Shown piece by piece: positions 17,685 through 64,000 of a DNA stretch of 64,000 nt (positions within the stretch are counted from its first letter, which is position 1; every line of letters begins with the position of its first letter). The stretch is from Eretmocerus hayati (lineage: Eukaryota; Arthropoda; Insecta; Hymenoptera; Aphelinidae), in contig CM056743.1 of assembly GCA_029851415.1 (NCBI GenBank), positions 16,112,727 through 16,176,726 of the forward strand, in the 5' to 3' direction. A program made the translations under genes and the position numbers. The notes under the pieces are model-generated. The model was not told where the DNA came from. It was given only the letters and a program-made list of their open reading frames with translations, and ran no database searches.

Positions 17685-20600
17685 ATTGTCAAACTTGCTC
17701 CAGTCGAGATGATAGATTTAGCTCAATCCCTCCAGCAAGCTTGACAAATCTCAGAAGATATGCAAAATTATATGTTCTTATTCTTGGAGCGAAGTCTCAT
17801 GTTTCAGTTCGAATACCGAAAGAGTGTCAAACCCGACGGAGCATGGTTGACAAATTTCATCTAGAGACTCGAGCAGGTTTGATAAACTCGCGATTCTCGT
17901 CGGGCATCAATGGGACTGTCGTTCTTTCGAATGTGACCAGTCAGTCAACTCTCGCCCGAGCGAGTTCTCTAATTTTTTCGATGATATCAGGAGATATTCA
18001 AACTTGCTCCAGTCAATATGATTAGTTCAGCTGAGATTCTGCAGCAAGCTTGGAAAATACCACAAAATCGATTCAAATTCATATGTTCTTATTCTTGGAG
18101 TCTCATGTTTGATTTCGAATGAAGAAAGGGTGTCAAACTCGACGCAGCAAGGTTGACAAATGTGATCAGCCTGGAGCAAGTTTGATAAGCCTCTCATTCT
18201 CGTTTAACCAGTCAGTCGACTCTCGCCTGAGCTTCTCTTATTTTTTCGATGATATCAGGAGATTGTCAAACTTGCTCCAGTCGACATGATAGATTCAGCT
18301 CAATTCCTCCAGCAAGCTTGACAAATCTCAGAAGATATGCAAAATTATATGTTCTCATTCTTGGAGCGAAGTCTCATGTTTCATTTCGAATACCGAAAGA
18401 GTGTCAAACCCGACGGAGCAAGCTTGACAAATTTCATACAGAGACTCGAGCAGGTGTGATAAGCTTGCAATTCTCGTCGGGCATCGCAGCAAGGTTGACA
18501 AATGTGATCAGCCTGGAGCAAGTTTGATAAGCCTCTCATTCTCGTCGGGAATCAATGGGACTGTCGTTCTTTTGAATGTGACCAGTCAGTCAACTCTCGC
18601 CTGGACTTCTCTAATTTTTTCTATGATATCAGGAATTTGTCAAACTTGCTGCTGTAGATATGATCAGTTTAGCTGAAAATCTGCAGCAAGCTTGACGAAC
18701 ACCACGAAATCGAACCAAATTCATCTGTTCTCATTCTCAGAGGGAGTCGGTCGTTTCTTACGCAAGTCTCATGTTTGATTTCGAATAAAGAAAAGGCGTC
18801 AAACGCGATGCAGCAAGGTTGACAAATTCAATCTGAGGACTGGAGCAAATTTGATAAGCTTGCGATTGTCGTCGGGCATCAATGAGACTGTCTTTCTTTT
18901 GCATGTGACCAGTCAGTCAACGCTCGCCTGGACTTCTCTAATTTTTTCGATGATATCAGGAAATTGTCAAACTTGCTGCCGTAGATATGATAAGTTCAGC
19001 GGGAATCTGCAGCAAGCTTGACAAACACCACGAAATCGAACCAAATTCATCTGTTCTCATTCTCGGAGCGAGTCGGTCGTTTCTTACGCAAGTCTCATGT
19101 TTGATCTCGAATAAAGAAAAGGCAACAAACGCGATGCAGCAAGGTTGACAAATTCAATCTGGAGCCTGGAGCAAGTTTGATGAGCCCCCGATTCTTGTCG
19201 GGAATCAATGAGACTGTCTTTCTTTTGCATGTGACCAGTCAGTCAACTCTCGCCTGGACTTCTCTAATTTTTTCTATGATATCAGGAATTTGTCAAACTT
19301 GCTGCTGTAGATATGATCAGTTTAGCTGAAAATCTGCAGCAAGCTTGACAAACACCACGAAATCGAACCAAATTCATCTGTTCTCATTCTCAGAGGGAGT
19401 CGGTCGTTTCTTACGCAAGTCTCATGTTTGATTTCGAATAAAGAAAAGGCGTCAAACGCGATGCAGCAAGGTTGACAAATTCAATCTGAGGACTGGAGCA
19501 AATTTGATAAGCTTGCGATTGTCGTCGGGCATCAATGAGACTGTCTTTCTTTTGCATGTGACCAGTCAGTCAACGCTCGCCTGGACTTCTCTAATTTTTT
19601 CGATGATATCAGGAAATTGTCAAACTTGCTGCCGTAGATATGATAAGTTCAGCGGGAATCTGCAGCAAGCTTGACAAACACCACGGAATCGAACCAAATT
19701 CATCTGTTCTCATTCTCGGAGCGAGTCGGTCGTTTCTTACGCAAGTCTCATGTTTGATCTCGAATAAAGAAAAGGCGTCAAACGCGATGCAGCAAGGTTG
19801 ACAAATTCAATCTGGAGCCTGGAGCAAGTTTGATGAGCCCCCGATTCTTGTCGGGAATCAATGAGACTGTCTTTCTTTTGCATGTGACCAGTCAGTCAAC
19901 TCTCGCCTGGACTTCTCTAATTTTTTCTATGATATCAGGAATTTGTCAAACTTGCTGCTGTAGATATGATCAGTTTAGCTGAAAATCTGCAGCAAGCTTG
20001 ACAAACACCACGAAATCGAACCAAATTCATCTGTTCTCATTCTCAGAGGGAGTCGGTCGTTTCTTACGCAAGTCTCATGTTTGATTTCGAATAAAGAAAA
20101 GGCGTCAAACGCGATGCAGCAAGGTTGACAAATTCAATCTGAGGACTGGAGCAAATTTGATAAGCTTGCGATTGTCGTCGGGCATCTATGAGACTGTCTT
20201 TCTTTTGCATGTGACCAGTCAGTCAACGCTCGCCTGGACTTCTCTAATTTTTTCGATGATATCAGGAAATTGTCAAACTTGCTGCCGTAGATATGATAAG
20301 TTCAGCGAGAATCTGCAGCAAGCTTGACAAACACCACGAAATCGAACCAAATTCATCTGTTCTCATTCTCGGAGCGAGTCGGTCGTTTCTTACGCAAGTC
20401 TCATGTTTGATCTCGAATAAAGAAAAGGCGTCGAACGCGATGCAGCGAGGTTGACAAATTCAATCTGAAGACTGGAGCAAATTTGATAAGCTTGCGATTG
20501 TCGTCGGGCATCAATGAGACTGTCTTTCTTTTGCATGTGACCAGTCAGTCAACGCTCGCCTGGACTTCTCTAATTTTTTCGATGATATCAGGAAATTGTC

Positions 20601-23600
20601 AAACTTGCTGCCGTAGATATGATAAGTTCAGCGGGAATCTGCAGCAAGCTTGACAAACACCACGAAATCGAACCAAATTCATCTGTTCTCATTCTCGGAG
20701 CGAGTCGGTCGTTTCTTACGCAAGTCTCATGTTTGATCTCGAATAAAGAAAAGGCGTCAAACGCGATGCAGCAAGGTTGACGAATTCAATCTGAAGACTG
20801 GAGCAAATTTGATAAGCTTGCGATTGTCGTCGGGCATCAATGAGACTGTCTTTCTTTTGCATGTGACCAGTCAGTCAACGCTCGCCTGGACTTCTCTAAT
20901 TTTTTCGATGATATCAGGAAATTGTCAAACTTGCTGCTGTAGATATGATAAGGTCAGCGGGAATCTGCAGCAAGCTTGACAAACACCACGAAATCGAACC
21001 AAATTCATCTGTTCTCATTCTCGGAGCGAGTCGGTCGTTTCTTACGCAAGTCTCATGTTTGATCTCGAATAAAGAAAAGGTGTCAAACGCGATGCAGCAA
21101 GGTTGACAAATTTAATCTAAAGAATGGAGCAAATTTGATGAGCTTGCGATTGTCGTCGGGCATCAATGAGACTGTCTTTCTTTTGCATGTGACCACTCAG
21201 TCAACGCTCGCCTGGACTTCTCTAATTTTTTCTATGATATCAGGAATTTGTCAAACTTGCTGCTGTAGATATGATCAGTTTAGCTGAAAATCTGCAGCAA
21301 GCTTGACAAACACCACGAAATCGAACCAAATTCATCTGTTCTCATTCTCAGAGGGAGTCGGTCGTTTCTTACGCAAGTCTCATGTTTGATTCCGAATAAA
21401 GAAAAGGAGTCAAACGCGATGCAGCAAGGTTGACAAATTCAATCTGAGGACTGGAGCAAATTTGATAAGCTTGCGATTGTCGTCGGGCATCAATGAGACT
21501 GTCTTTCTTTTGCATGTGACCAGTCAGTCAACGCTCGCCTGGACTTCTCTAATTTTTTCGATGATATCAGGAAATTGTCAAACTTGCTGCTGTAGATATG
21601 ATAAGGTCAGCGGGAATCTGCAGCAAGCTTGACAAACACCACGAAATCGAACCAAATTCATCTGTTCTCATTCTCGGAGCGAGTCGGTCGTTTCTTACGC
21701 AAGTCTCATGTTTGATCTCGAATAAAGAAAAGGCGTCAAACGCGATGCAGCAAGGTTGACAAATTCAATCTGAAGACTGGAGCAAATTTGATAAGCTTGC
21801 GATTGTCGTCGGGCATCAATGAGACTGTCCTTCTTTTGCATGTGACCAGTCAGTCAACGCTCGCCTGGACTTCTCTAATTTTTTCGATGATATCAGGAAA
21901 TTGTCAAACTTGCTGCTGTAGATATGATAAGGTCAGCGGGAATCTGCAGCAAGCTCGACAAACACCACGAAATCGAACCAAATTCATCTGTTCTCATTCT
22001 CGGAGCGAGTCGGTCGTTTCTTACGCAAGTCTCATGTTTGATCTCGAATAAAGAGAAGGTGTCAAACGCGATGCAGCAAGGTTGACAAATTTAATCTAAA
22101 GAATGGAGCAAATTTGATGAGCTTGCGATTGTCGTCGGGCATCAATGAGACTGTCTTTCTTTTGCATGTGACCAGTCAGTCAACGCTCGCCTGGACTTCT
22201 CTAATTTTTTCTATGATATCAGGAATTTGTCAAACTTGCTGCTGTAGATATGATCAGTTTAGCTGAAAATCTGCAGCAAGCTTGACAAACACCACGAAAT
22301 CGAACCAAATTCATCTGTTCTCATTCTCAGAGGGAGTCGGTCGTTTCTTACGCAAGTCTCATGTTTGATCTCGAATAAAGAAAAGGCGTCGAACGCGATG
22401 CAGCGAGGTTGACAAATTCAATCTGAAGACTGGAGCAAATTTGATGAGCTTGCGATTGTCGTCGGGCATCAATGAGACTGTCTTTCTTTTGCATGTGACC
22501 AGTCAGTCAACGCTCGCCTGGACTTCTCTAATTTTTTCGATGATATCAGGAAATTGTCAAACTTGCTGCCGTAGATATGATAAGTTCAGCGGGAATCTGC
22601 AGCAAGCTTGACAAACACCACGAAATCGAACCAAATTCATCTGTTCTCATTCTCGGAGCGAGTCGGTCGTTTCTTACGCAAGTCTCATGTTTGATCTCGA
22701 ATAAAGAAAAGGCGTCAAACGCGATGCAGCAAGGTTGACAAATTCAATCTGAAGACTGGAGCAAATTTGATAAGCTTGCGATTGTCGTCGGGCATCAATG
22801 AGACTGTCCTTCTTTTGCATGTGACCAGTCAGTCAACGCTCGCCTGGACTTCTCTAATTTTTTCGATGATATCAGGAAATTGTCAAACTTGCTGCTGTAG
22901 ATATGATAAGGTCAGCGGGAATCTGCAGCAAGCTTGACAAACACCACGAAATCGAACCAAATTCATCTGTTCTCATTCTCGGAGCGAGTCGGTCGTTTCT
23001 TACGCAAGTCTCATGTTTGATCTCGAATAAAGAAAAGGTGTCAAACGCGATGCAGCAAGGTTGACAAATTTAATCTAAAGAATGGAGCAAATTTGATGAG
23101 CTTGCGATTGTCGTCGGGCATCAATGAGACTGTCTTTCTTTTGCATGTGACCAGTCAGTCAACGCTCGATGGACTTCTCTAATTTTTTCTATGATATCAG
23201 GAATTTGTCAAACTTGCTGCTGTAGATATGATCAGTTTAGCTGAAAATCTGCAGCAAGCTTGACAAACACCACGAAATCGAACCAAATTCATCTGTTCTC
23301 ATTCTCAGAGGGAGTCGGTCGTTTCTTACGCAAGTCTCATGTTTGATTCCGAATAAAGAAAAGGAGTCAAACGCGATGCAGCAAGGTTGACAAATTCAAT
23401 CTGAGGACTGGAGCAAATTTGATAAGCTTGCGATTGTCGTCGGGCATCAATGAGACTGTCTTTCTTTTGCATGTGACCAGTCAGTCAACGCTCGCCTGGA
23501 CTTCTCTGATTTTTTCTATGATATCAGAAATTTGTCAAACTTGCTGCTGTAGATATGATCAGTTTAGCTGAAAATCTGCAGCAAGCTTGACAAACACCAC

Positions 23601-26600
23601 GAAATCGAACCAAATTCATCTGTTCTCTATCTCAGAGGGAGTCGGTCGTTTCTTACGCAAGTCTCATGTTTGATTTCGGATAAAGAAAAGGCGTCAAACG
23701 CGATGCAGCAAGGTTGACAAATTCAATCTGAAGACTGGAGCAAATTTGATAAGCTTGCGATTGTCGTCGGGCATCGATGAGACTGTCTTCCTTTTGCATG
23801 TGACCAGTCAGTCAACTCTCGCCTGGACTTCTCTAATTTTTTCTATGATATCAGAAATTTGTCAAACTTGCTGCTGTAGATATGTTCAGTTTAGCTGAAA
23901 ATCTGCAGCAAGCTTGACAAACACCACGAAATCGAACCAAATTCATCTGTTCTCTATCTCAGAGGGAGTCGGTCGTTTCTTACGCAAGTCTCATGTTTGA
24001 TTTCGGATAAAGAAAAGGCGTCAAACGCGATGCAGCAAGGTTGACAAATTCAATCTGAAGACTGGAGCAAATTTGATAAGCTTGCGATTGTCGTCGGGCA
24101 TCGATGAGACTGTCTTTCTTTTGCATGTGACCAGTCAGTCAACTCTCGCCTGGACTTCTCTAATTTTTTCTATGATATCAGGAATTTGTCAAACTTGCTG
24201 CTGTAGATATGATCAGTTTAGCTGAAAATCTGCAGCAAGCTTGACAAACACCACGAAATCGAACCAAATTCATCTGTTCTCATCCTCAGAGGGAGTCGGT
24301 CGTTTCTTACGCAAGTCTCATGTTTGATTTCGAATAAAGGAAAGGCGTCAAACGCGATGCAGCAAGGTTGACAAATTCAATCTGAGGACTGGAGCAAATT
24401 TCATAAGCTTGCGATTGTCGTCGGGCATCAATGAGACTGTCTTTCTTTTGCATGTGACCAGTCAGTCAACGCTCGCCTGGACTTCTCTAATTTTTTTCTA
24501 TGATATCAGGAATTTGTCAAACTTGCTGCTGTAGATATGATCAGTTTAGCTGAAAATCTGCAGCAAGCTTGACAAACACCACGAAATCGAACCAAATTCA
24601 TCTGTTCTCATTCTCAGAGGGAGTCGGTCGTTTCTTACGCAAGTCTCATGTTTGATTTCGAATAAAGAAAAGGCGTCAAACGCGATGCAGCAAGGTTGAC
24701 AAATTCAATCTGAAGACTGGAGCAAATTTGATAAGCTTGCGATTGTCGTCGGGCATCAATGAGACTGTCTTTCTTTTGCATGTGACCAGTCAGTCAACGC
24801 TCGCCTGGACTTCTCTAATTTTTTCGATGATATCAGGAAATTGTCAAACTTGCTGCTGTAGATATGATAAGGTCAGCGGGAATCTGCAGCAAGCTTGACA
24901 AACACCACGAAATCGAACCAAATTCATCTGTTCTCATTCTCGGAGCGAGTCGGTCGTTTCTTACGCAAGTCTCATGTTTGATCTCGAATAAAGAAAAGGC
25001 GTCAAACGCGATGCAGCAAGGTTGACAAATTCAATCTGAAGACTGGAGCAAATTTGATAAGCTTGCGATTGTCGTCGGGCATCAATGAGACTGTCTTTCT
25101 TTTGCATGTGACCAGTCAGTCAACTCTCGCCTGGACTTCTCTAATTTTTTCTATGATATCAGGAATTTGTCAAACTTGCTGCTGTAGATATGATCAGTTT
25201 AGCTGAAAATCTGCAGCAAGCTTGACAAACACCACGAAATCGAACCAAATTCATCCGTTCTCATTCTCAGAGGGAGTCGGTCGTTTCTTACGCAAGTCTC
25301 ATGTTCGATTTCGAATAAAGAAAAGGCGTCAAACGCGATGCAGCAAGGTTGACAAATTCAATCTGAAGACTGGAGCAAATTTGATAAGCTTGCGATTGTC
25401 GTCGGGCATCAATGAGACTGTCTTTCTTTTGCATGTGACCAGTCAGTCAACGCTCGCCTGGACTTCTCTAATTTTTTCGATGATATCAGGAAATTGTCAA
25501 ACTTGCTGCTGTAGATATGATAAGGTCAGCGGGAATCTGCAGCAAGCTTGACAAACACCACGAAATCGAACCAAATTCATCTGTTCTCATTCTCGGAGCG
25601 AGTCGGTCGTTTCTTACGCAAGTCTCATGTTTGATCTCGAATAAAGAAAAGGTGTCAAACGCGATGCAGCAAGGTTGACAAATTTAATCTAAAGAATGGA
25701 GCAAATTTGATGAGCTTGCGATTGTCGTCGGGCATCAATGAGACTGTCTTCCTTTTGCATGTGACCAGTCAGTCAACTCTCGCCTGGACTTCTCTAATTT
25801 TTTCTATGATATCAGGAATTTGTCAAACTTGCTGCTGTAGATATGATCAGTTTAGCTGAAAATCTGCAGCAAGCTTGACAAACACCACGAAATCGAACCA
25901 AATTCATCTGTTCTCATTCTCAGAGGGAGTCGGTCGTTTCTTACGCAAGTCTCATGTTTGATTTCGAATAAAGAAAAGGCGTCAAACGCGATGCAGCAAG
26001 GTTGACAAATTCAATCTGAGGACTGGAGCAAATTTGATAAGCTTGCGATTGTCGTCGGGCATCAATGAGACTGTCTTTCTTTTGCATGTGACCAGTCAGT
26101 CAACGCTCGCCTGGACTCCTCTAATTTTTTCGATGATATCAGGAAATTGTCAAACTTGCTGCCGTAGATATGATAAGTTCAGCGGGAATCTGCAGCAAGC
26201 TTGACAAACACCACGAAATCGAACCAAATTCATCTGTTCTCATTCTCGGAGCGAGTCGGTCGTTTCTTACGCAAGTCTCATGTTTGATCTCGAATAAAGA
26301 AAAGGCGTCAAACGCGATGCAGCAAGGTTGACAAATTCAATCTGAAGACTGGAGCAAATTTGATAAGCTTGCGATTGTCGTCGGGCATCAATGAGACTGT
26401 CTTTCTTTTGCATGTGACCAGTCAGTCAACTCTCGCCTGGACTTCTCTAATTTTTTCTATGATATCAGGAATTTGTCAAACTTGCTGCTGTAGATATGAT
26501 CAGTTTAGCTGAAAATCTGCAGCAAGCTTGACAAACACCACGAAATCGAACCAAATTCATCTGTTCTCATTCTCAGAGGGAGTCGGTCGTTTCTTACGCA

Positions 26601-27420
26601 AGTCTCATGTTTGATTTCGAATAAAGAAAAGGCGTCAAACGCGATGCAGCAAGGTTGACAAATTCAATCTGAAGACTGGAGCAAATTTGATAAGCTTGCG
26701 ATTGTCGTCGGGCATCAATGAGACTGTCTTTCTTTTGCATGTGACCAGTCAGTCAACGCTCGCCTGGACTTCTCTAATTTTTTCGATGATATCGGGAAAT
26801 TGTCAAACTTGCTGCTGTAGATATGATAAGGTCAGCGGGAATCTGCAGCAAGCTTGACAAACACCACGGAATCGAACCAAATTCATCTGTTCTCATTCTC
26901 GGAGCGAGTCGGTCGTTTCTTACGCAAGTCTCATGTTTGATCTCGAATAAAGAAAAGGTGTCAGACTCGATGCAGCAAGGGTGACAAATGTGATGTGGAG
27001 CCTGGAGCAAGTTTGATGATCCCCCGATTCTTGTCGGGAATCAATGAGACTGTCTTTCTTTTGCATGTGACCAGTCAGTCAACTCTCGCCTGAACTTCTC
27101 TAATTTTTTCGATGATATCAGGAAATTGTCAAACTTGCTGCTGTGGATATGATGAGTTCAGCTGAGAATCTGCAGCAAGCTTGAAAAATACCACGAAATC
27201 GAACCAAATTCATCTGTTCTCATTCTCAGAGCGAGTCGGTCGTTCAGGAAATTGTCAAACTTGCTACTGTGGATATGATGCTGACTGGTTACATTCAGAA
27301 GAACGACAGATCAAACTTGCTTCAGTCTCGTCGTCAACCTTCAGGAATTTGTCAAATTTGCTCATGTGGATATGATAAGTTTAGTTCAGTACCTGCAGCA
27401 AGCTTGACAAATTCCGAGGA
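17685..27420. repeat. Satellite array 1, ~326-bp monomer with 653-bp dimer
   Basis: The anchor CAAACTTGCT recurs at 18641, 18968, 19294, 19621, 19947 and on to about 27127, alternating 327- and 326-bp steps; that is 26 steps. Type A monomers read GCTGTAGATATGATCAG and CTCAGAGGGAGTC; type B read GATATGATAAGTTCAGCGGG or the variant with AAGGTCAGCGGG, and CTCGGAGCGAGTC. A-B dimers dominate, with runs of B and a run of five A at about 23.2-24.5 kb. Copies at 17.7-18.6 kb and after 27.1 kb are shorter or more diverged, as at array edges. Each monomer holds inverted copies of a TGTCAAACTTGCTGC motif. Open frames inside the array are incidental. Confidence 0.95.
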
Positions 27421-27634
27421 TCCTGTAAATTTTGTCATACTTGCTCGAGCATTATTGACATTTTGTCCATCCCAAGAAAAAAAATCAAAAGAAACTGGAA
27501 GAGATCGGTTAGATTCTTTGGGCTGTCTGGATGGTGTGAAGGACTGGTATCAGAGTATATCCAACTGAATCCTCCATCTATTTACACTTTTCCATCTATT
27601 TACACTTTTTACATACTATCAGTTTATCTATAAT
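27421..27634. other. Gap between satellite array 1 and the minus-strand paralog's 3' end
   Basis: Includes a doubled string TCCATCTATTTACACTTTT at about 27573-27610, just past the stop codon of the minus-strand gene. No AATAAA was found for that gene here. Confidence 0.4.
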
Positions 27635-30329
27635 TCAGGTGGTCTTTTTCTTTTTGGTCAAATTTCCGTCCTGGTCACCTGCAACTTGAGCCCTGAAGGT
27701 ACGAGGTAAGTTGTCGAGAATGAGTGTATTTCAAACAATACGCGATTGGTAGTCGGTTCAAGTTCTCATACTTACGGAGAAGGAACCATCGACTTGTCCA
27801 GATCGTCCATCAATGACCTAGCCCTGGTTCGGATATGCTTGAACCCGAGTCCTTTTTTCCCCTTTTTCTGATTTTTATCTTCCTCTTTCATTGCGTGATT
27901 GTGTACTTCACATTCCCTGTGGACAAATCAATCGTGTTTCACCTTCAAATAAGCACGGAATGAAGTGAGAGGGAGAGTCTGGTTTCAATCGGATTTGACA
28001 CTTACAATTCCAATCTCTTTTCCAAACAATGAACGCATTTGAATGTTTGATTTGTAGTAATGCTATCGAGATACTGCAACATCTCCGATAGGATTGTCAC
28101 ATATTGAGTCCTCACAACCAGACTCAGTGATTCGTTGGCAACGCGGGCCAGAGCATGAGTAAAAAGGTTCAGAGCCAACTTGGGTTCTGGCTCCGGAGGT
28201 GAGAGACGGGTTGGTTTTGACAAGGGGCTGGTTTTCTCCTGTGCAAACTTCAACATACTGGAAGAGGAGATGCTCAAGTTTGCGAACAATGAAATCTAAA
28301 TTCAGAGTAGTGCAATGCTCACAGATTGTGGATCAGATTTGTTTGAACTTCTTCAAACGTATCGTAGACTGGTTTTTTTTGGTATTTATCGACCAAACTG
28401 TTGAAGTCTGACCGGATGAAGCATAGTTTCATAAACGAGGTGGTACCGCTGATGATGGCCCGTTGCCTCCTCGCTTCTGCCTCATCGGTCTGTTCTGCGT
28501 TTTGATCGAAGCAGGCCACAAACAAAACTTCCGCAAAACTTTTGGGCCCGTTGTTATTAAATCTCTCTCCACCCTTGTACAACGCTAGCCTGGTGATTGA
28601 ATGTCACTTTCTTAAATCTCTAGCTTGATTGATACTAGTACCCACCATAAATAATGGAACACGTAGGGGCTCATCCGAACAATGATATTTCCAATTCGAT
28701 TGGTCATACGGGAATTTTAAAAAAAAAAGGTTTTGTAGGTCACAAAAAATCTATCAATTCATGGGTTTTGATAAATTTCTATGTGCTTTTTGATTGCCCG
28801 TAAAGGTGGTTGAGAATCATGAAAAAATCTCCCTCAATCAATCACCTACAATTTTGACGGGAGTGATCCGATCACAAAAAAAAAATACTCACAAGATCTT
28901 GTCGATCGTTCAAAATATAAAAATTTGATCCTCTGTAAAATTTTCGTACGACCCTTTTCGTCTGACTTACGAGCTCCGAAAGAAAACTTTGTATTAGCAT
29001 AGGGTGCTTATGTAGATACCGAGCCTGGCAACTTTATCATTTTCTCTCGCAAAATTCTGGGCCAAAATTGGATTCAAAAAATATCATGGGACATGATTTC
29101 TACGTGAAATGATCTCGTCTTTCAGAATATTTGATCAAATTTTGTCTAAGATTTGAGGTAGCAACGATTTCTGTAAATATGACATGAGATTGCTCCAATT
29201 CCAATCGAAACAGTAATACTTCGATTACTGTTTGAATGACACCCTACGCTTTCCATTATTTACGGTGGGTATCATGTGAGCTCGTCAAGCTCGACATATA
29301 TCATCAGATATATTTATCATCTCAGTTACAGCAAGTTTGACAACTCTCTGATACTGGAGAGATTGAATTTTCGCGATGAATGTAATAATGACAACCTTGC
29401 TCACTTTGAGAAAAATTGAATTGAATTTCATTCCTCTGTAAAATTTTCTTCGCGATGGATGGAATAATGACGACCTTGCTCACTTTGAGAAAAATTGAAT
29501 TGAATTTCATTCCTCTGTAAAATTTTCTTCGCGATGAATGGAATAATGACGACCTTGCTCACTTTGAGAAAAATTGAATTGAATTTCATTCCTCTGTAAA
29601 ATTTTCGTACGACCCTTCTCGTCTGACTTACGAGCTCTGGAAGACAACTTTGTATTAGCATAGGGTGCCTATGTAGATACTGAGCCTGGCAAGTTTTAAC
29701 TACTCAAAACGTGTTCACCGCATCAAAATAGGTCGAAAACAGTGTTTTGGGGCGGCTGAAAGCTATAAATGTTGCAATTTTTCAATCGCGTATTATGTTG
29801 AGAATTCACTACGTGTGTTAAATCTTTGATTATGAATGTTCGATCTTAGAAAGCTTTTGGTAATTAATATTATTGTTATTGTATATGGTGCATCGATCAT
29901 GTGAGCCCGTCAAGCTCGCCATATATAATCGGACCTTTTTATCATTTCAGTTTGAGCAAGTTTGACACTTCCCATCAGATCTTTTCATCATCTCAGTTCG
30001 AGCAAGTTTGAGAGATTGAATTTTCGCGATGAATGGAATAATGACACCCATACTCACGCGTGTGCGACCATGCTGGGCCCATGGAGGTGTGCAGAGTCTT
30101 TGTTTAAAAACTCATCAACTGGGCCAACATATTCTGATATCGCCGCCGCGAGCTCGAGGTTCTTGTTCTTTGTAGGGACACCCAGCCTCGTCAACATAGC
30201 CAATGAATTAATTATTTTATTATTGCTAACGAAAGCTGAGTCCCTGCAACATTGTCGAAGTGTCTCAAGTGTTGACAAACAACCACCGAATATCTTGTCT
30301 TCCACGTAATTCATTGTGATAGATATCAT
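27635..30329 (-). CDS. Uncharacterised five-exon gene, basic C-terminus (minus partner of divergent pair)
   Basis: Exons read on the minus strand: 30329-30058, 28589-28323, 28257-28006, 27916-27776 and 27692-27635. Every junction is GT-AG (GTGAGT, GTGAGC, GTAAGT and GTAAGT donors), every intron is phase 2, and the joined frame is open for 329 aa. The start at 30329 is chosen as the first ATG after a TATA-like box near 30381-30372; 30314 is an alternative. I do not recognise the family. Visible features: a mostly helical-looking N-terminal half with YVGPVDEFLN and GPSMVAHALALYKGG, a Pro-rich stretch (SPPEPEPK), a CVHC motif at residues 254-257, then a basic tail (NQKKGKKG, final TKKKKTT) suggesting nuclear or nucleic-acid contact. 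Exon lengths, phases, CxxC position and the segments above resemble the divergent gene at 30529-33811, so the two look like paralogs. The 1468-bp intron 1 holds minisatellite and satellite-like motifs. Confidence 0.8.
28590..30057 (-). repeat. Intron 1 of the minus-strand paralog: internal duplications
   Basis: A 79-bp unit repeats from about 29365 to 29605 (CGCGATG at 29372, 29451 and 29530). A block around CTCTGTAAAATTTTCGTACG is present at about 28931-29030 and again at 29592-29692. A related TTTTCGCGATGAATGGAATA string lies at about 30021-30040, next to the 5' splice site. Fragments AGCAAGTTTGACA near 29330 and 29950-30010 resemble the neighbouring satellite motif. Confidence 0.75.
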
Positions 30330-30528
30330 GCACCGGCGAAGAAACAAAACAATGTTTCGCCGGTCTCGCTAGCCTTTATATGTCTGCTGCGGCTCGACTT
30401 GCGCGCGCAGCGTTGCTATGCGGCGTTGTGGGGAGCGGAGCACGTGTGCCGTCAACGCTCGCTCCTGGCGAGCAAGCGAATTGACACAGTTCAGGCTGAG
30501 TCGCTCAGCAGTGCACATCGTTCCGATT
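30330..30528. promoter_or_regulatory. Putative bidirectional promoter of the divergent paralogs
   Basis: The start codons at 30329 (minus) and 30529 (plus) are 200 bp apart; an upstream in-frame ATG at 30418 would shorten this. The interval holds a CCTTTATATG box at 30372-30382 that reads as ACATATAAAGG on the minus strand and could serve either direction. It also has a palindrome at 30332-30364, a CpG-rich stretch from 30385 and a CACGTG E-box near 30439. No transcript evidence is available. Confidence 0.5.
30332..30364. promoter_or_regulatory. Palindrome at the divergent promoter
   Basis: ACCGGCGAA at 30332-30340 is the exact reverse complement of TTCGCCGGT at 30356-30364, and GAAAC/GTTTC extends the arms inward across a short A-rich centre. 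It sits beside the minus-strand start codon and roughly where that gene's transcription start is expected. Confidence 0.7.
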
Positions 30529-33500
30529 ATGTCGAATACACTCCTAGAAAAGTACCCTTGGCGGATGGGGGCGGAGATAGCTATGATAAGAGCATGGATG
30601 CTCAACGTAACTGCGGAGACCTGGAGTGATGCTGAGGAATCGAGAAGTGTATGCAGTAAGATGGCCCGCGAAATATTGAAGAAGAGGCCACACCTCATTG
30701 ATTTGACTGTGTGTAGAAAAATGCGCAATTTCATTGGCGAGGATGTGGCGGGATTCATCAACACACCGATCCAGCTGCAGTCACCAACTCATGCGCTGGC
30801 GAGCTGGATGGAGTGAGTACAGATTGAATAGTTTATGAGCTCATCAGGGAATTGTCAAACTTGCTGCAGTCGTGATGATAAAATTGGTCGAATCCCTGCA
30901 GCAAGCTTGACAAATCTGAGAAGATACATGCAAAATCATATGTTCTCATTCTCGGAGCGAGTCGGTCGTTTCTTACGCAAGTCTATTGTTTTATTTCGAA
31001 TCTCGAAAGAGTGTCAAACGAGACAAAGCAAGGTTGACAAATGTGATCTGGAGCCTGGAGCAGATTTGATCGTGTACTTGCTGCCGTAGATACCGATTTT
31101 CGGCGCGAATCAATGAGACTGTCTTTCTTTTTAATGTGACCAGTCAGTCAACTCTCCTCTAATTTTTTTGATGATATCAGGGGATTGTCAAACTTGCTGC
31201 AGTCGACATGATGAGATCAGCTTAATTTCTGCAGCAAGCTTGACAAATACCACAAAATTCATTCAAATTCATATTTTCTTATTTTTGGAGCGAGTCGGTC
31301 GTTTCTTACGCGGGTCTCATGTTTGATTTCGAATACAGAAAGGGTGTGTAACCCGACGCAGCAAGGTTGACAAATGTCATCTAGAGACTGAAGCAAGATT
31401 GATGAGCTCGCGATCCTCGTCGGGCATCAATGAGACTGTCTTTCTTTTGCATGTGACCAGTCAGTCAACTCTCGCCTGAACTTCTCAAATTTTTTCGATG
31501 ATATTAGGAGATTGTCAAACTTGCTGCTGTGGATATGATGAGTTTAGCTGAAAATCTGCAGCAAGCTTGACAAACACCACGAAATCGAACCAATTCATCT
31601 GTTCTCATTCTCAGAGCGAGTCCGTCGTTTCTTACACAAGTCTCATGTTTCATTTCGAATACCGAGAGAGTGTCAAACGCGACGCAGCAAGGTTGACAAA
31701 TTTGATCTGGAGCCTGGAGCAAGTTTGATGTGTCTACGATTCCCGTCGGGCATCAATGAGACTGCCTTTTTTTAATGTGACCAGTCAGTCAACTCTCGCC
31801 CGAGCTTCTCTAATTTTTTCTATGATATCAGGAGATTTTCAAACTTGCTGCAGTCGAAATGATAAGTTTAGCTCAATTCCTGCAGCAAGCTTGACAAATC
31901 CGAGAAGATACATGCAAAATCATATGTTCTTATTCTTGGAGCGAGTCGGTCGTTTCTTACGCAACTCTCATGTTTGATTTCGAATGAAGAAAGGGTGTCA
32001 AACGCGACGCAGCAAGGTTGACAAATCGGATCTGGAGCCTGAAGCAGGTTTGATGAGCCCCCGATTTTCGGCGCGAATCAATGAGACTGTCTTTCTTTCT
32101 AATGTGACCAGTCAGTCAACTCTCGCCCGAGCTTCTCTAATTTTCTCGAAGATATCAGGACATTGTCAAACTTGCTGCAGTCGAAATGATGAAATTAGTC
32201 GAATTCCTCCAGCAAGCTTGACAAATCCGTCGTTTCTTACGCAAGTCTCATGTTGGATTTCGAATGAAGAAAGGATGTCAAAGCCGACGAAGCAAGGTTG
32301 ACAAGTTTGATGAGCTCGTGATTCTCGTCAACTTGCTGCCGTGGATATGATTGGTTCACCCGAAAATCTGCAGCAAGCTTGACAAATACCACAAAATTAA
32401 TTCAAATTCATATGTTCTTATTCTCGGAGCGAGTCGGTCGTTTCTTACGCAACTCTCATGTTTGATTTCGAATGAAGAAAGGGTGTCAAACGCGACGCAG
32501 CAAGGTTGACAAATTAAATCTGGAGCCTGGAGCAGGTCTGATGAGCCCCCGATTTTCGGCGCGAATCAATGAGACTATCTTTCTTTCTAATGTGACCAGT
32601 CAGTCAACTCTCGCCCGAGCTTCTCTAATTTTCTCGAAGATATCAGGACATTGTCAAACTTGCTGCAGTCGAAATGATAAGTTTAGCTCAATTCCTGCAG
32701 CAAGCTTGACAAATCCGAGAAGATACATGCGAAATCATGTTTTTATTCTCTGAGCGAGTCCGTCGTTTCTTACGCAAGTCCATGTTTTATCTCGAATACA
32801 GAAAGAGTGTCAAACGCATCGCAGCAAGGTTGACAAATGTGACTAAAGACTGGAGCAAGTTTGATAAGCTTTCTTGGCCGTAATATGGCAGTGCTCGAGC
32901 ACCCTTGATAGTTGCCTCGATGGATCTGTCGAACTTGCTCACTAAATCATGGGAGAATTCCAGCAAGCTTGATAAATCTATGATGGATTCGAGCAATTCA
33001 TCTGACTACAGCTGAGATGACAAAACCTACAGGAGGGCATGAGTCTTATTTTGGATTCGTTCTTTGTTGCAGATACTGCTATCGAGAGACAGAGGAACCA
33101 AAAAATTTGGACCGCAAACCCTCTGAGGCCCGGTCCGAGCATTGCACAAAACTTTTGTGGGACAACCGGCTCACCCCGGCTGAAATTAAGATGTTTAGTT
33201 TCATATTTCGAAGCAAGGCAACTGGGGCGGTTGTCTCCTCTCTTTTGCTCGATCCACCTAGCATCGCCATAGCTGAGGAGCACCTAGAAGACATGAAAGT
33301 GTACTTACGCGAAGCCATGTAAGTTCCATGTAAAGTCCGTCTGATCTGTACTCGATTTCCTGATTTCCACGATAAACAATCTCATTTTATGTTTTCTACA
33401 GCACTTATGCTGCAGACGAGTATTATAGAGGCGATAGGACCCAGTTCCAGGCGGTCCTAATGGCCAAAAATAAACATATAAAAGAGAGAAAGGACTACGA

Positions 33501-33811
33501 CGAGCAATTCCAGATGTTAAAAGACCAGATGGAAGAGCTCAAAAATACGACGTCCAAAGCAGAGTATAGTCGGAGAGTGGAGGAGCTGGGGCTCGTCGCC
33601 CACCCCCTCTTAGCCTTCTATGATCTAACCCTCAATTGCGAACACTGCAACGTGGAAGTGTAAGTATTGCTTATGCATTCTTATTGGACTTAATGAGACA
33701 GTGATTCAATACTAGTTTCTTTGCAGACCAAAAATCGACACTTGGGTGAGGGGACTGAATGATTCGGATGAAGATGAAGAGAAGGAGGAGGGAGATGAGG
33801 TTGATGAATGA
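30529..33811 (+). CDS. Uncharacterised four-exon gene, acidic C-terminus (plus partner of divergent pair)
   Basis: Exons are 30529-30812, 33073-33318, 33402-33659 and 33727-33811. Donors are GTGAGT, GTAAGT and GTAAGT; acceptors are TTGCAG, CTACAG and TTGCAG. All introns are phase 2 and the joined frame encodes 290 aa. An in-frame ATG at 30418 would add 37 basic residues; I prefer 30529 because those residues have no counterpart in the minus-strand paralog. Family not recognised. Visible features: FIGEDVAGFINTP and SPTHALASWMEY (matching YVGPVDEFLN and GPSMVAHALALY in the partner), a charged helical stretch with coiled-coil character (residues ~200-235), CEHC at residues 256-259, and a tail with 12 Asp/Glu in the last 17 residues. 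The 2260-bp intron 1 is largely satellite DNA. Confidence 0.8.
30845..32960. repeat. Satellite array 2, inside intron 1 of the plus-strand paralog
   Basis: Diverged copies of the array-1 monomer, with the CAAACTTGCTGCAGTC anchor near 30858, 31189, 31518, 31838, 32168 and 32657, plus truncated pieces. The hairpin motif, the GAGCGAGTCGGTCGTTTCTT segment and the GTGACCAGTCAGTCAACTC segment are shared with array 1. Copies differ from each other more than array-1 copies do, so this looks older or less homogenised. Confidence 0.92.
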
Positions 33812-34030
33812 ATGAGTAAATGAATGAATGAGTATTTTGAAAATCTGTACATATTAATTAATTACGATTAGAATGATAATGATGAATGAATGAGTAAATT
33901 AATGAAAATACATCTCTACATATTAATTAATTACAATTAGAATGATAATGATGAATGAATGAGTAAATTAATGAAAATACATCTCTACATATTAATTAAT
34001 TAATTAATTACAATTAGAATGATAATTTTC
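33812..34030. repeat. Minisatellite 3' of the plus-strand paralog
   Basis: Three copies of a 69-78-bp AT-rich unit (GAATGATAATGATGAATGAA ... TACATATTAATTAATTAC) start at the stop codon of the upstream gene, whose TGAATGAATGAG shares the motif. The last copy is lengthened by TAAT iteration. Confidence 0.85.
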
Positions 34031-34084
34031 TACTTAACCCTTGTTTTGTGATTTTCTCCCTTGTGATTCTCACCTGAGCTTCGC

Positions 34085-35197
34085 TCATTTTCTCAGTAAT
34101 ATCGAGTGATTGTCAAACTTGCTCCAAAATAATGATGAGTTTAGCTCACTATCTATAGCAAGCTTGACAAATACTTGAAGATACATGCAGAGGTCGTTTC
34201 TTACACAAGTCTCATGTTTCATTTCGAATACCGAAAGAGTGTCAGACGCGACGCAGCAAAGTTGACAAATTTGATCTGGAACCTGGAGCAAGTTTGATGT
34301 GTCTACGATTCCCGTCGGGCATGAATGAGACTGCCTTTTTCTTCAACGTGACCAGTCAGTCAACTCTCGCCCGAGCTCTTCTAATTTTTTCTATGATATC
34401 AGGAGATTTTCAAACTTGCTGCCGTAAATATGATTAGTTTAGCTGGTAATCTGCAGCAAGCTTGACAAATACCACGAAATCGATTCGAATTCATATGTTC
34501 TTATTCTTGGAGCGAGTCGGTCGTTTCTTACCTAAGTCTCATGTTTCATTTCGAATACCGAGAGAGTGTCAAACGCGACGCAGCAAGGCTGACAAATTTG
34601 ATCTGAAGACTGAAGCAAATTTGATGAGCTCGCGATTCTCGTCGGGCAGCAATGAGACTGCCTTTTTCTTCAATGTGACCAGTCAGTAAACTCTCGCCCG
34701 AACTCCTCTAATTTTTTCTATGATATCAGGAGATTTTCAAACTTGCTGCCGTAAGTATGATGAGTTTAGCTGGTGATCTGCAGCAAGCTTGACAAATACC
34801 ACGAAATCGATTCGAATTCATATGTTCTTATTCTTGGAGCGAGTCGGTCGTTTCTTACGCAACTCTCATGTTTGATTTCGAATGAAGAGAGGGTGTCAAA
34901 CGCAACGCAGCAAGGTTGACAAATTGGATCTGGAGCCTGAAGCAGGTTTGATAAGCCCCCGATATTCGGCGCGAATCAATGAGACTGTCTTTCTTTCTAA
35001 TGTGACCAGTCAGTCAACTCTCGCCCGAGCTTCTCTAATTTTCTCGAAGATATCAGGACATTGTCAAACTTGCTGCAGTCGAAATGATAAGTTTAGCTCA
35101 ATTCCTGCAGCAAGCTTGACAAATCCGAGAAGATACATGCAAAATCATAAGTTCTTATTCTTGGAGCGAGTCCGTCGTTTCTTACACAAGTCCCATG
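34085..35197. repeat. Satellite array 3, 3' of the plus-strand paralog
   Basis: Three to four diverged monomers of the same satellite, with anchors near 34113, 34411, 34737 and 35067. The array stops abruptly at about 35197 inside a monomer (after TTTCTTACACAAGTCCCATG), which suggests a breakpoint or insertion. Confidence 0.9.
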
Positions 35198-35690
35198 TGC
35201 CGGTGTGTGGGGTTCGACTCCTGGAGCTCCCAGGAAGCCTACAGGGGGGGTGTGATTCTACTGCCACGGAGGAGCTCCCTCCAGGCTAAAAGGGTGTGTC
35301 CGAGTGACGGTGTCACGGTCGCGGACTAGTGCGACTCTTGGCGCTCCCAAGGAGTCGTCTACTGGATGTTCTCATCTGTCTATAGAGCTCCTATGAACAG
35401 AGAGGAGTTGCCAGCTGCAAGACTCTAGAGCCATCTCTTGAACCAGAGCTCCTGATTCCAAGAGAGGCGCATGAGTCCGCTGCTCGGTGCAGACTGATTT
35501 GTTCGAAGCGGTCGTCGGGTGGATATCAATGCTGGCAGGTGCTTTGCTTGCGAACGGTGTATTGGAGACAGCCATCTGGCGGCGGAAGGTCGAATTACGC
35601 TGTCTGCTCGATGAATTGCGCGGGTACCGGAGCTATACTGGTATCATAGCGAAGGGGCCCGTCGCAACCAATCAATCGTAACAATATGGT
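35198..35690. other. GC-richer block abutting satellite array 3, origin unclear
   Basis: Begins at the satellite breakpoint. It contains two related strings, CGACTCCTGGAGCTCCCAGG and CGACTCTTGGCGCTCCCAAG, about 110 bp apart. The first includes GGTTCGACTCC, which resembles a Pol III B box as in tRNA-derived SINEs, but no A box or tRNA fold was found. A 64-codon plus-strand frame (35487-35681) has no recognisable motif. Could be a transposon fragment. Confidence 0.35.
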
Positions 35691-58655: not shown

Positions 58656-59140
58656 ATCGCGAACTCAATGTGGTGTTTGTGATCGAACTCAATGTAGCCC
58701 TCGTAATGCAGAACTCATGAACGAGAACGACATAGAGTTCTTGATCTTGAAACCCCCATTGATTTCTCGGTCACGATTACCACATTGAGTTTTCGATCAC
58801 GAGTTCCACATTCAGTTCACGATCACGAGTACCACATTGAATTCTGGATCATAAGTACCACATTGAGTTCTCGATCACGAGTACCACATGGAGTTCTGGA
58901 TTACGAGTAACACATTGAGTTCTTGATCACGATTACCACATTGAGTTCTCGATCACGAGCACCACATTGAGTTCTCGATCGCGAGTGCTGGATTAAATTC
59001 TCGACCTCCAGTACCACTTCGAGTTCTCGGTCATGAGTACCACATCAAGTTCTCGATCACAAGGACCACATCGAGTTCTCGATCGCGAGTGCCAGATCAA
59101 GTTCTCGATCACGCCTACCAAATTGAATTCTGGATCAGGA
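58656..59140. repeat. Minisatellite, 26-bp unit, with inverted first copies
   Basis: The unit ACCACATTGAGTTCTCGATC plus ACGAGT repeats about 15 times from 58745, with variants. At 58656-58720 two or three units run in the opposite orientation (GAACTCAATGTGGTGTT, GATCGAACTCAATGTAG). The unit contains the near-palindrome CTCGATCACGAG. Confidence 0.88.
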
Positions 59141-60750: not shown

Positions 60751-62088
60751 TCACTCTAAGTCGCGTTCTCCTGGTAGAAAATGTGCATCTGCCCACGCTT
60801 TATTCATTCTCCTTTGCTCCTTTTTTCTGTTATCGAAATAATCATTCACCTCTTGTGCTCGCCTTATCCGCTCTGCCTGTGTGATATAGACGCGTGCCTG
60901 ACGCTCAGCTGTTGTGCGATAGCCTCTGATTGGACTCCACGCTCTATTCACTACTTGTTGCTGCGGTGGCGGCGGCTCAACACTTGGACGCGGGTTTTCC
61001 TGGATCTGATGTTGTGGCTCAATTTCTCTCTGTTGTGCCTCTTGTATACATATCTGCGGCTCATCACTCGGCAGTGGCGGCTCCTCCTCTATCTCTTCGA
61101 TGATGACTTGATCACGTAATTGCTGTCCTGGCGCGTAAAAATCAAAGTCAATTTGTAAATCTACAGATATACGACGCCGATGATTTTGTTTACAAGGGGG
61201 TGGACCACGCTGCTGGTGTCTTGCGCGTGATCTCTCTTCTTGTAGTCTCCTCACTAGAGCACGATTTTCTGCTGCCCAACGATCAGCTGACCGTTGTATA
61301 TGGTGTTCTCGCGCGTGGACGTCTGCCTCGCGCTGCATCACTGCTTCTTCTCGAACTTGCAGCATATCTTCACGATACTGCAACGATAAATGCAGCTGCT
61401 CCGCATTTTGTATGGCGCGTGGCAGATCCACCGCGAATCTCTCCAGCACTTCTTGCCTTTCATAATTCATCCGCCTTTCGAATTCTCGTTCCCGCAACTG
61501 CAAAAAATGTGCACGTTGACGTTCTTGAAGAGCAACACTGCATTGCACTTCCAAACCCAAACGCGCATTTCCAACGGCACCATTTAGCTCAGCCGCACAA
61601 GTTGCTGCATGAGCATCGGCGCGCGCTTTTCTCACGAGCTGCTGCTCTTCGAGGAATTCGGGCGTCGGTGTTGTTGCTATTGTTGCTACCGCGCGCGACT
61701 CTGCTTCTCGACGGCGCTTATCTTCCTCCTTCCATGGCTGTGCTATAGCTTTCAAACTTTGCATAAGAGCTGATTTCTCTCGCACTCGGCGACGTGCATG
61801 GAATTCAGCGATGTCATCTGCGCTAATTTCTTCTTGCTCTCGACGCACTGGTGGAACGATTGCGGGTACATTGGGGTTATTTTGTGCTGGCACTATAACC
61901 TCTTTTACTATGGGGTTATGAGCGTCCAAAGGCACATTCATCTCCACACTATCTACACTATCTACACTGTCTCTGTCCTGTACCACACTGTTATTCACGC
62001 GCGTATTAGAGTCATTATTTACACTTTCCTGTTCCTTCTTACTGTCTTTTTCTAGCCATTTTAACACTGCCTCTTTTATAGGTCCCAT
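60751..62088 (-). CDS. Retroelement ORF3 in the env position, coiled-coil protein of unknown function
   Basis: A 445-aa frame starts with ATG at 62088, 168 bp after the pol stop, and ends 607 bp before the LTR. It has no signal peptide, no membrane segment and no Cys pattern, so it does not look like an envelope glycoprotein. The N-terminus carries DSVDSVDSVE. Residues ~90-295 are rich in Arg, Glu, Gln and Ala with heptad-like spacing (REREFERRMNYERQEV, QYREDMLQVREEAVMQRE), a long predicted coiled coil. A Pro/Gln-rich segment (SVEPPPPQQQVV) precedes a basic C-terminus (RKKEQRRMNKAWADAHF). I do not recognise the family. Possible roles are a relocated Gag-like structural protein or an accessory factor; both are inference. 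Expression would need a spliced or reinitiated transcript. Confidence 0.7.
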   Translation of the reverse strand: MGPIKEAVLKWLEKDSKKEQESVNNDSNTRVNNSVVQDRDSVDSVDSVEMNVPLDAHNPIVKEVIVPAQNNPNVPAIVPPVRREQEEISADDIAEFHARRRVREKSALMQSLKAIAQPWKEEDKRRREAESRAVATIATTPTPEFLEEQQLVRKARADAHAATCAAELNGAVGNARLGLEVQCSVALQERQRAHFLQLREREFERRMNYERQEVLERFAVDLPRAIQNAEQLHLSLQYREDMLQVREEAVMQREADVHAREHHIQRSADRWAAENRALVRRLQEERSRARHQQRGPPPCKQNHRRRISVDLQIDFDFYAPGQQLRDQVIIEEIEEEPPLPSDEPQICIQEAQQREIEPQHQIQENPRPSVEPPPPQQQVVNRAWSPIRGYRTTAERQARVYITQAERIRRAQEVNDYFDNRKKEQRRMNKAWADAHFLPGERDLE

Positions 62089-62256
62089 TTTAACACTTTT
62101 CTAGTCAATCTTCTAGTCACTAATTTTATACACTTAGCTTTAATTCACTCTAGTCACTTAGTTTTATACACACACTAGTCTGTTTATACACAATAGTCAC
62201 TAGTTCATAAGTTTATAGATTTATAAGTTTTTATTACACCACTGCTTTATAACAAT

Positions 62257-64000
62257 CTAGTCACCCGCTTTAGCCTTAGATCGCGTAACTGGACCTGTCA
62301 TGCGCGTGGGCTTTTGATCGGGCTCGCGTGCGATGCGCTCACCTGTAGCTCCTCGCGGCTTCTGCCGGCTCTTCTTCCGGACGCGTGCCGCTGCTGCGGA
62401 GTGGGGAGGCTCGCCGGTACTTGACGACGCCGAATTTTCTTTCTGCTGCTGATGTGATGATTGCTCGAGCGTATTATTTTTGTTCGTCTGATTTGATGCA
62501 ACGCTTGCATATTTCAGATCCTTGGCGTGGACAGATGATTGTAATTCAGCTCCATCCTTTGATAATATGTATACGTTTTCGCCCAATTTCTTGCTGATTT
62601 CATATGGACCGATGAATTTTTCTGCCAATTTCGCTGTGAAATTCTTCTCTGCTGATGACAATGGTCGATTCTTCTTCAGTACCTTATCACCTATTTTAAA
62701 TCTAACATCACGCTTTGATACATTATAATTCAATTTTTGTTTTTCGCTCGCTTTTTCGATCTTATTTATAGTAGAGTCGTGTACCTCGGGTAACTTATTC
62801 ATACGATCTGACCAATTTTCTACTGATTCCTGAGAAACAATAAAATCTGAATTGAGCTTCTCGTGTTGAATAGTAAATTTCTCGGGCTCATCGACTCGCG
62901 AACGCTCATTTGATTGGTTTGAACTCTGATTTTCTGATTCGCTTTCTACCTTATTTTCTGACTTTACATTTGAACTGATTTCTGCTCCGTCTAAACCTTT
63001 TAATGACTCTATTAATTCGGTTTGGTTACCGTTTTTCATGAAATTTTTCAAGCTCTTCCCGAATATTTCCACGCGTCTTCTCCATAATTTTGGCGCTTTA
63101 ATCTCGCGTCCATAAATCATGAACGCTGGTGATTTTCCGGTTGAACTTGAAAAATTCGAATTGTGACAAAATTGAAATTGTTGAATATGCTTATTCCACT
63201 CTTTGTGGTTATCAGCAAATATTGCTATCATGGTCTTAATATCTTTATTAACCCTCTCAACTGGATTTGCTTGGGGATGGAAACTAGGGGTGAATTCATG
63301 CTCTATACCGTTTTCCTCGCAGAATTTATTCATTAATTCGTTTTTGAACTCTAACCCATTATCGCTAATCAGAATTTCCGGTGTCCCATAATGTGTACAT
63401 AATACATTTTCCAGTGCATTCTGAACCGCTTGCCCAGTCTTTTTACGTAATGGTACGCAGACTATATAACGGCTAAAAATACACTCAAAAATGAGTAAAT
63501 ATTCAAATTGTTCTCTCGATTTTGGGAATCGTCCCATTAAATCCATTGCTATAATTTTCATCGGTCTGTCGACTGTGCGCGTACCCATCATACCTATCTG
63601 ACCGCGTTGATCTACCTTATATAACGCGCAACTATCGCAATTTTTCACGTAATTCGCGACGTCTAGGTAAATACCGGGCCAATAGTATGACTGCGCGACC
63701 TTTCTATACGTTTTTTCTTTTCCCATATGACCGGCTGATGGCTCGTCATGGCTTTCTTTAATTATTTTTACGCGGTTTTCTTCCGGAACTACTAATTTCC
63801 ACGCATCTAAATCATCAATTATTTCATTTAATTCGTGATCTGGCCTGTATTTATAAATTCTACCATCCATAATTTTCCAATCTCTGTATCTCTTTGGATG
63901 TTTCAAAATTTGAAAAAATCTTTTGTTGTACCACTTATCTGATGTTTTCTCAAGAACTCCAACTGAACCGATATTCATCGTGTCGTCTTCAAACATTCTT
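62257..64000 (-). CDS. pol: Ty3/Gypsy-like Pol polyprotein, C-terminal part with integrase (5' partial)
   Basis: The frame is open through the right edge of the window, so protease, reverse transcriptase and RNase H lie outside. Numbering from the Met at 63996: an HHCC zinc-binding module uses H83, H90, C120 and C123. The integrase core has D152 (IAMDLMGRF), D212 (ISDNGLEF) and E247 (NPVERVN), a D,D-35-E arrangement with 34 residues between the last two. A C-terminal SH3-like segment (RFKIGDKVLKKN, KFIGPYEISKKL, SVHAKDLKY) follows, then a Lys/Arg-rich tail of about 75 residues (VRKKSRQKPRG). The HHCC-DDE-SH3 order is that of LTR-retrotransposon integrases, closest in feel to Ty3/Gypsy. No stop or frameshift interrupts the visible part, so this copy may be young. 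Confidence 0.9.
   Translation of the reverse strand, partial: RMFEDDTMNIGSVGVLEKTSDKWYNKRFFQILKHPKRYRDWKIMDGRIYKYRPDHELNEIIDDLDAWKLVVPEENRVKIIKESHDEPSAGHMGKEKTYRKVAQSYYWPGIYLDVANYVKNCDSCALYKVDQRGQIGMMGTRTVDRPMKIIAMDLMGRFPKSREQFEYLLIFECIFSRYIVCVPLRKKTGQAVQNALENVLCTHYGTPEILISDNGLEFKNELMNKFCEENGIEHEFTPSFHPQANPVERVNKDIKTMIAIFADNHKEWNKHIQQFQFCHNSNFSSSTGKSPAFMIYGREIKAPKLWRRRVEIFGKSLKNFMKNGNQTELIESLKGLDGAEISSNVKSENKVESESENQSSNQSNERSRVDEPEKFTIQHEKLNSDFIVSQESVENWSDRMNKLPEVHDSTINKIEKASEKQKLNYNVSKRDVRFKIGDKVLKKNRPLSSAEKNFTAKLAEKFIGPYEISKKLGENVYILSKDGAELQSSVHAKDLKYASVASNQTNKNNTLEQSSHQQQKENSASSSTGEPPHSAAAARVRKKSRQKPRGATGERIAREPDQKPTRMTGPVTRSKAKAGD

Follow-up and report, generated by a model that had tools for sequence, protein, structure and literature searches.

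A head-to-head pair of spliced genes in Eretmocerus hayati, possibly an old inverted duplicate diverged beyond sequence recognition

Organization of the locus

Eretmocerus hayati is a chalcid wasp and a whitefly parasitoid. The window analyzed here is a stretch of 64,000 nucleotides of its genome (assembly GCA_029851415.1, contig CM056743.1, positions 16,112,727 to 16,176,726), and it contains two genes arranged head to head on opposite strands: gene A, which starts at 30529 on the plus strand, and gene B, which starts at 30329 on the minus strand. The initial annotation had placed the two starts about 200 bp apart, and the measured distance between the start codons is 199 bp. This intergenic region is presumed to act as a shared promoter (Table 1). 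By eye, a TATAAAG motif can be discerned on its minus strand, approximately 50 bp ahead of the gene B start codon.

After splicing, both frames are open to the stop codon and encode products of 290 amino acids (gene A) and 329 amino acids (gene B), in agreement with the earlier description of two intact spliced genes. The introns measure 2260, 83 and 67 nt in gene A and 1468, 65, 89 and 83 nt in gene B, and all seven have GT-AG ends. The GC content at codon positions 1, 2 and 3 is 0.52, 0.37 and 0.57 in gene A and 0.48, 0.36 and 0.51 in gene B, which is the pattern expected of coding DNA, while the two other frames are interrupted by 17 and 22 stops in gene A and by 16 and 17 stops in gene B. 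The anatomy of both gene models, as read from the window sequence, is right.

Table 1. Positions of the gene pair and of the repeats in its first introns, numbered from the first nucleotide of the window.
Feature	Position	Strand	Remarks
Gene B exon 5	27635..27692	-	58 nt including stop; lysine-rich end
Gene B exon 4	27776..27916	-	141 nt; basic
Gene B exon 3	28006..28257	-	252 nt; CxxC at residues 254-257
Gene B exon 2	28323..28589	-	267 nt
MITE-like insert	28639..29271		gene B intron 1; 48-nt ends 81% complementary
Second degenerate satellite hairpin unit	29276..29360	-	gene B intron 1, B sense; 32.4 bits on minus strand, 6.7 on plus
Degenerate satellite hairpin unit	29889..29973	-	gene B intron 1, B sense; 20.4 bits, E 7.5e-6
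Gene B exon 1	30058..30329	-	272 nt
Divergent intergenic region	30330..30528		199 bp; presumed shared promoter, from sequence
Gene A exon 1	30529..30812	+	284 nt, ends in phase 2; 3' junction same in QAD02_000681
Satellite copies, ~327 bp unit	30843..32871	+	fill most of gene A intron 1, A sense direction
Gene A exon 2	33073..33318	+	246 nt; both junctions same in QAD02_000681
Gene A exon 3	33402..33659	+	258 nt; CxxC at residues 256-259; acceptor same in QAD02_000681
Gene A exon 4	33727..33811	+	85 nt including stop; acidic tail; absent from public model

The gene A protein corresponds to a single database entry, the hypothetical protein QAD02_000681 of E. hayati, with 100% identity over 91% of the query. 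The junctions of exons 1-3 agree between this entry and the window model. QAD02_000681 begins at an upstream ATG inside the intergenic region, and at its other end it reads through the intron 3 donor to a TAA. Because the public model thus continues into intron 3, gene A exon 4 is read from the window sequence alone. Gene prediction in E. hayati is described as drawing on de novo, homology and RNA-seq evidence, weighted 4, 5 and 10 (PMC10482854), and exons 1-3 of gene A have accordingly been annotated independently by a pipeline that includes RNA-seq evidence.

Several other features of the window were recorded. On the minus strand, a 377-codon open frame at 14859-15989 matches the JmjC domain with 24.8 bits, against a Pfam cut-off of 24 bits, and a retroelement-type integrase reading frame (Integrase_H2C2, rve) at 62260-63999 is open at the window edge. 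It is followed by a 449-codon reading frame at 60754-62100 and, at the opposite end of the window, a 539-codon open frame on the plus strand (2-1618) enters from the edge; neither has a Pfam match at E 0.01. A 26-bp tandem repeat occurs in sixteen copies at 58721-59137.

Searches for relatives of the two proteins

The search for similar proteins depends on shared exact words, and for gene B it covered proteins of 0.55-1.75 times the query length, so that a truncated or fused gene B model would escape it. Among 3412 word-sharing candidates, no match to the gene B protein was found at E≤10. A word search with the first exon and the opening of the second exon of gene A (residues 39-145 of P0001, the gene A protein) returned only the query itself among 13 candidates. 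Within the window, tblastn of both proteins gave nothing better than E 0.10 beyond their own exons.

Neither protein has a Pfam domain above the curated cut-off. Two matches lie below it: VWA7_N for gene A, with E 0.002 and 18 bits where the cut-off is 27.5, and DUF1247, which we take to be a baculovirus family, for gene B, with E 0.003 and 17.9 bits where it is 27. As a control, the reversed proteins gave nothing for gene A and at best E 0.14 for gene B; since these controls are weaker, the two matches remain weak leads and are not explained away. In the NCBIfam library, which represents prokaryotes, nothing reached E 10 for either protein, and two scans of viral contigs confirmed no candidate. 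A bacterial origin was considered for gene A only, for which no relative was confirmed in prokaryote genome contigs.

In the PDB, no match was found for gene B, and five were found for the gene A protein (P0001), four with an E of at least 0.34 and one, to kinesin light chain, with an overall E of 4e-4. The latter comprises four matches of 4.1-5.8 bits, all starting from residue 32 or 33 of P0001 and lying mostly in exon 1. It was discounted because these matches fall on successive repeats of one chain, so that a single short resemblance is counted four times over. AlphaFold2 run on the gene A protein alone gave a mostly helical model with a mean pLDDT of 38.2 and a pTM of 0.23, which is not usable.

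Apart from QAD02_000681, therefore, the protein, Pfam, NCBIfam, PDB and viral searches, together with the prokaryote searches for gene A, revealed no relative above threshold, and none from outside E. hayati. The earlier statement that neither protein could be placed in a known family stands.

Shared architecture of the two genes

Several points of likeness that the initial annotation had listed were recovered on splicing. The first three introns are in phase 2 in both genes, and exons 1-3 measure 284, 246 and 258 nt in gene A versus 272, 267 and 252 nt in gene B. Each protein contains a single CxxC motif, which starts at residue 256 in gene A and at residue 254 in gene B. In addition, the introns follow the same size order of long, short and short (2260/83/67 versus 1468/65/89 nt). 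The genes differ in that gene B possesses a fourth intron, which gene A does not.

The probability of such a match in phase and exon length was estimated by Monte Carlo simulation, which scored the phases together with the summed difference in exon length. For a pair of unrelated genes it was 5e-5 to 1e-4, and given the values of gene A it was 7e-6 to 5e-5. These odds are rough: the three sets of exon-length distributions and the phase frequencies are assumed rather than measured values, and the two genes were singled out for their likeness. Under these assumed statistics only, the exon match is more than would be expected by chance. Correspondence of the introns was judged from their number, phase and spacing, and matching their positions at the level of residues would need a trusted alignment.

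Comparison of the two proteins

Significant protein similarity, which is expected of head-to-head paralogues, was not found between A and B in three comparisons. The best BLASTP pair had an E of 1.2 and spans 7 residues around the CxxC motif. Local alignment of the whole proteins, assessed with 500 shuffles, gave p values of 0.16, 0.19 and 0.91 with three matrices. Global alignment exon by exon, with 1000 shuffles, gave totals with p values of 0.35 (BLOSUM62), 0.085 (BLOSUM45) and 0.023 (PAM250), uncorrected for the use of three matrices. Like-numbered exons were favored inconsistently in this alignment: B3 was the best partner of A3 under two matrices, and B1 that of A1 under one, whereas A2 scored highest with B3, and not with B2, under all three.

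When exons 1-3 of both genes were paired in all 15 ways and aligned semi-globally, using 2000 shuffles and two matrices, no p value fell below 0.08. The lowest belonged to the pair A1-B1, for which p was 0.08 with BLOSUM45 but 0.77 with BLOSUM62. Internal exon duplication was likewise considered, and none of the 15 pairs reached p 0.05.

The initial annotation had further proposed that particular segments of the two proteins align. This alignment does not exceed chance, and because the shuffle and BLASTP tests are near chance, the quoted segments carry no weight for paralogy. Moreover, the proposed ungapped pairing of GPSMVAHALALY with SPTHALASWMEY puts intron 1 three residues apart in the two proteins, and is therefore inconsistent with a shared intron position.

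Satellite hairpins in both first introns

A satellite array with a 326-bp unit occupies 18486-27244 in about 27 copies, and more copies lie past gene A at 34065-35198; the gene pair is thus flanked by the satellite on both sides, in addition to the copies within gene A intron 1. The 326-bp unit contains a partly palindromic segment, TTGTCAAACTTGCTGC...GCAAGCTTGACAAA. For the hairpin, a 130-nt part of the unit was modeled from 40 copies, obtained by a plus-strand anchor search, and the model was run on both strands of the window. It gave 183 matches up to E 10, of which 89 are on the plus strand and 94 on the minus strand. All 43 strong matches (at least 36 bits) are on the plus strand.

Owing to the partial palindrome, copies on the plus strand give weaker shadows on the minus strand. 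Of 37 minus-strand matches above 20 bits, 35 sit on a stronger plus-strand match, and the other two are both located in gene B intron 1 (Table 1). Ten further minus-strand matches lack a stronger plus-strand match, none of them exceeding 11.6 bits; one, at 30013-29984 with 7.5 bits, falls within gene B intron 1, and the rest are elsewhere. In both first introns, therefore, the hairpin unit is oriented along the sense strand of the gene that contains it. When the two introns were compared directly, 86 nt matched at 66% in the sense orientation (E 3.6e-6), whereas antisense matches were weaker, with E 0.027 at best.

This sense orientation hints at the trace that would be expected from the inverted duplication of a gene with such an intron. 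However, a single inverted insertion followed by local duplication may give the same orientation at even odds. As the copies in gene B intron 1 may stem from one locally duplicated event, their orientation amounts to approximately a one-in-two observation.

Gene B intron 1 also holds three 79-bp tandem copies at 29370-29606. By eye, the 79-bp unit resembles the donor sequence of this intron; the segment 30010-30057 has one further copy in the window.

Origin of the gene pair

The reading that we favor, with about even confidence, is that A and B are two real, spliced, probably lineage-restricted genes on either side of a promoter region of about 200 bp, and that they most likely represent an old inverted duplicate that has diverged beyond recognition. 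One ancestral gene would already have carried a satellite hairpin in its first intron. An old inverted duplication of this gene would have yielded A and B, which would then have diverged past sequence recognition and would be transcribed outward from the region between them. Paralogy is probable yet unproven, and is argued for by the architecture and the intron hairpin, not by protein sequence. The inverted duplication put forward in the initial annotation thus remains plausible on the grounds of phases, exon lengths, intron sizes, CxxC placement and hairpin orientation, but is unsupported by the protein comparisons.

The lack of a clear signal in those comparisons would also be expected if A and B were two unrelated, lineage-restricted neighbors on a divergent promoter, with a likeness in exon size and phase that arose by coincidence in a long window. 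One study of E. hayati (PMC13116730) counts 6171 genes specific to the species, in 962 orthogroups that are likewise species-specific, so that, by that count, genes without relatives are ordinary in this wasp. Yet agreement in three phases and three exon lengths together would be improbable given the assumed statistics, the intron size order and the place of the CxxC motif agree as well, and the hairpin runs in the sense direction in both introns. A coincidence of neighbors is consequently a tentative alternative, which we nonetheless regard as a real possibility.

The repeats raise the question as to whether both genes, or one of the two, derive from a mobile element or endogenous virus and arrived together with them. 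Satellite copies on both flanks, the MITE-like insert, the integrase reading frame elsewhere in the window and the sub-threshold DUF1247 match of gene B, whose reversed control gave at best E 0.14, would be consistent with such an origin. It is nevertheless unlikely, given the multi-intron structure, the failure to confirm a relative in viral contigs and the lack of Pfam domains above the cut-off in both proteins. Furthermore, among the 25 longest of the 154 inverted repeats detected within 27250-35400, none resembles a pair of ends bounding both genes. Finally, that gene B is no functional gene, but a run of open exons next to gene A left by decay or strung together by chance, is barely credible, for although the protein search returned no match, its 329 codons are open over five exons, its four introns all have GT-AG ends, its coding periodicity is like that of gene A and its other frames are closed by stops.

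Relation to known systems and implications

With start codons 199 bp apart, the head-to-head pair resembles bidirectional-promoter genes, although the likeness is drawn from start codons alone, whereas pairs of that kind are defined by their transcription start sites. Such pairs are often co-expressed, and the divergent layout suggests that A and B probably are as well. The exon architecture and mirrored orientation recall inverted tandem duplicates, but recent duplicates of this type would keep their protein similarity, and A and B have no clear residual similarity. Finally, the pair is akin to the orphan genes of parasitoid wasps, in that the searches run found no relative outside E. hayati; it differs in consisting of multi-exon genes, possibly duplicates, instead of a lone short reading frame.

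As to function, no obvious signal peptide is apparent by eye, and both products could conceivably be intracellular. The gene A protein is acidic (pI 5.07), with an acidic tail, and the gene B protein is basic (pI 8.65), with a lysine-rich tail; this charge contrast, together with the presumed shared promoter, suggests that the two might be partners, and pairing as a heterodimer is conceivable. Divergent H2A-H2B genes provide both members of a pair simultaneously. By analogy, A and B might represent a new insect protein family of inverted duplicates with one promoter and opposite charge that form an obligate acidic/basic heterodimer, a speculation to which we assign only a slim chance. Until relatives or expression are seen, the biology of the pair is unexceptional.

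For the annotation of this biocontrol wasp, the analysis offers gene B, which was not encountered in the protein search, and exon 4 of gene A. Should the two genes not be duplicates, they would be two ordinary species-specific genes. If, on the other hand, they are a true inverted duplicate, gene architecture would have outlived sequence similarity, and what look like two orphans would prove to be members of a single family that has diverged.
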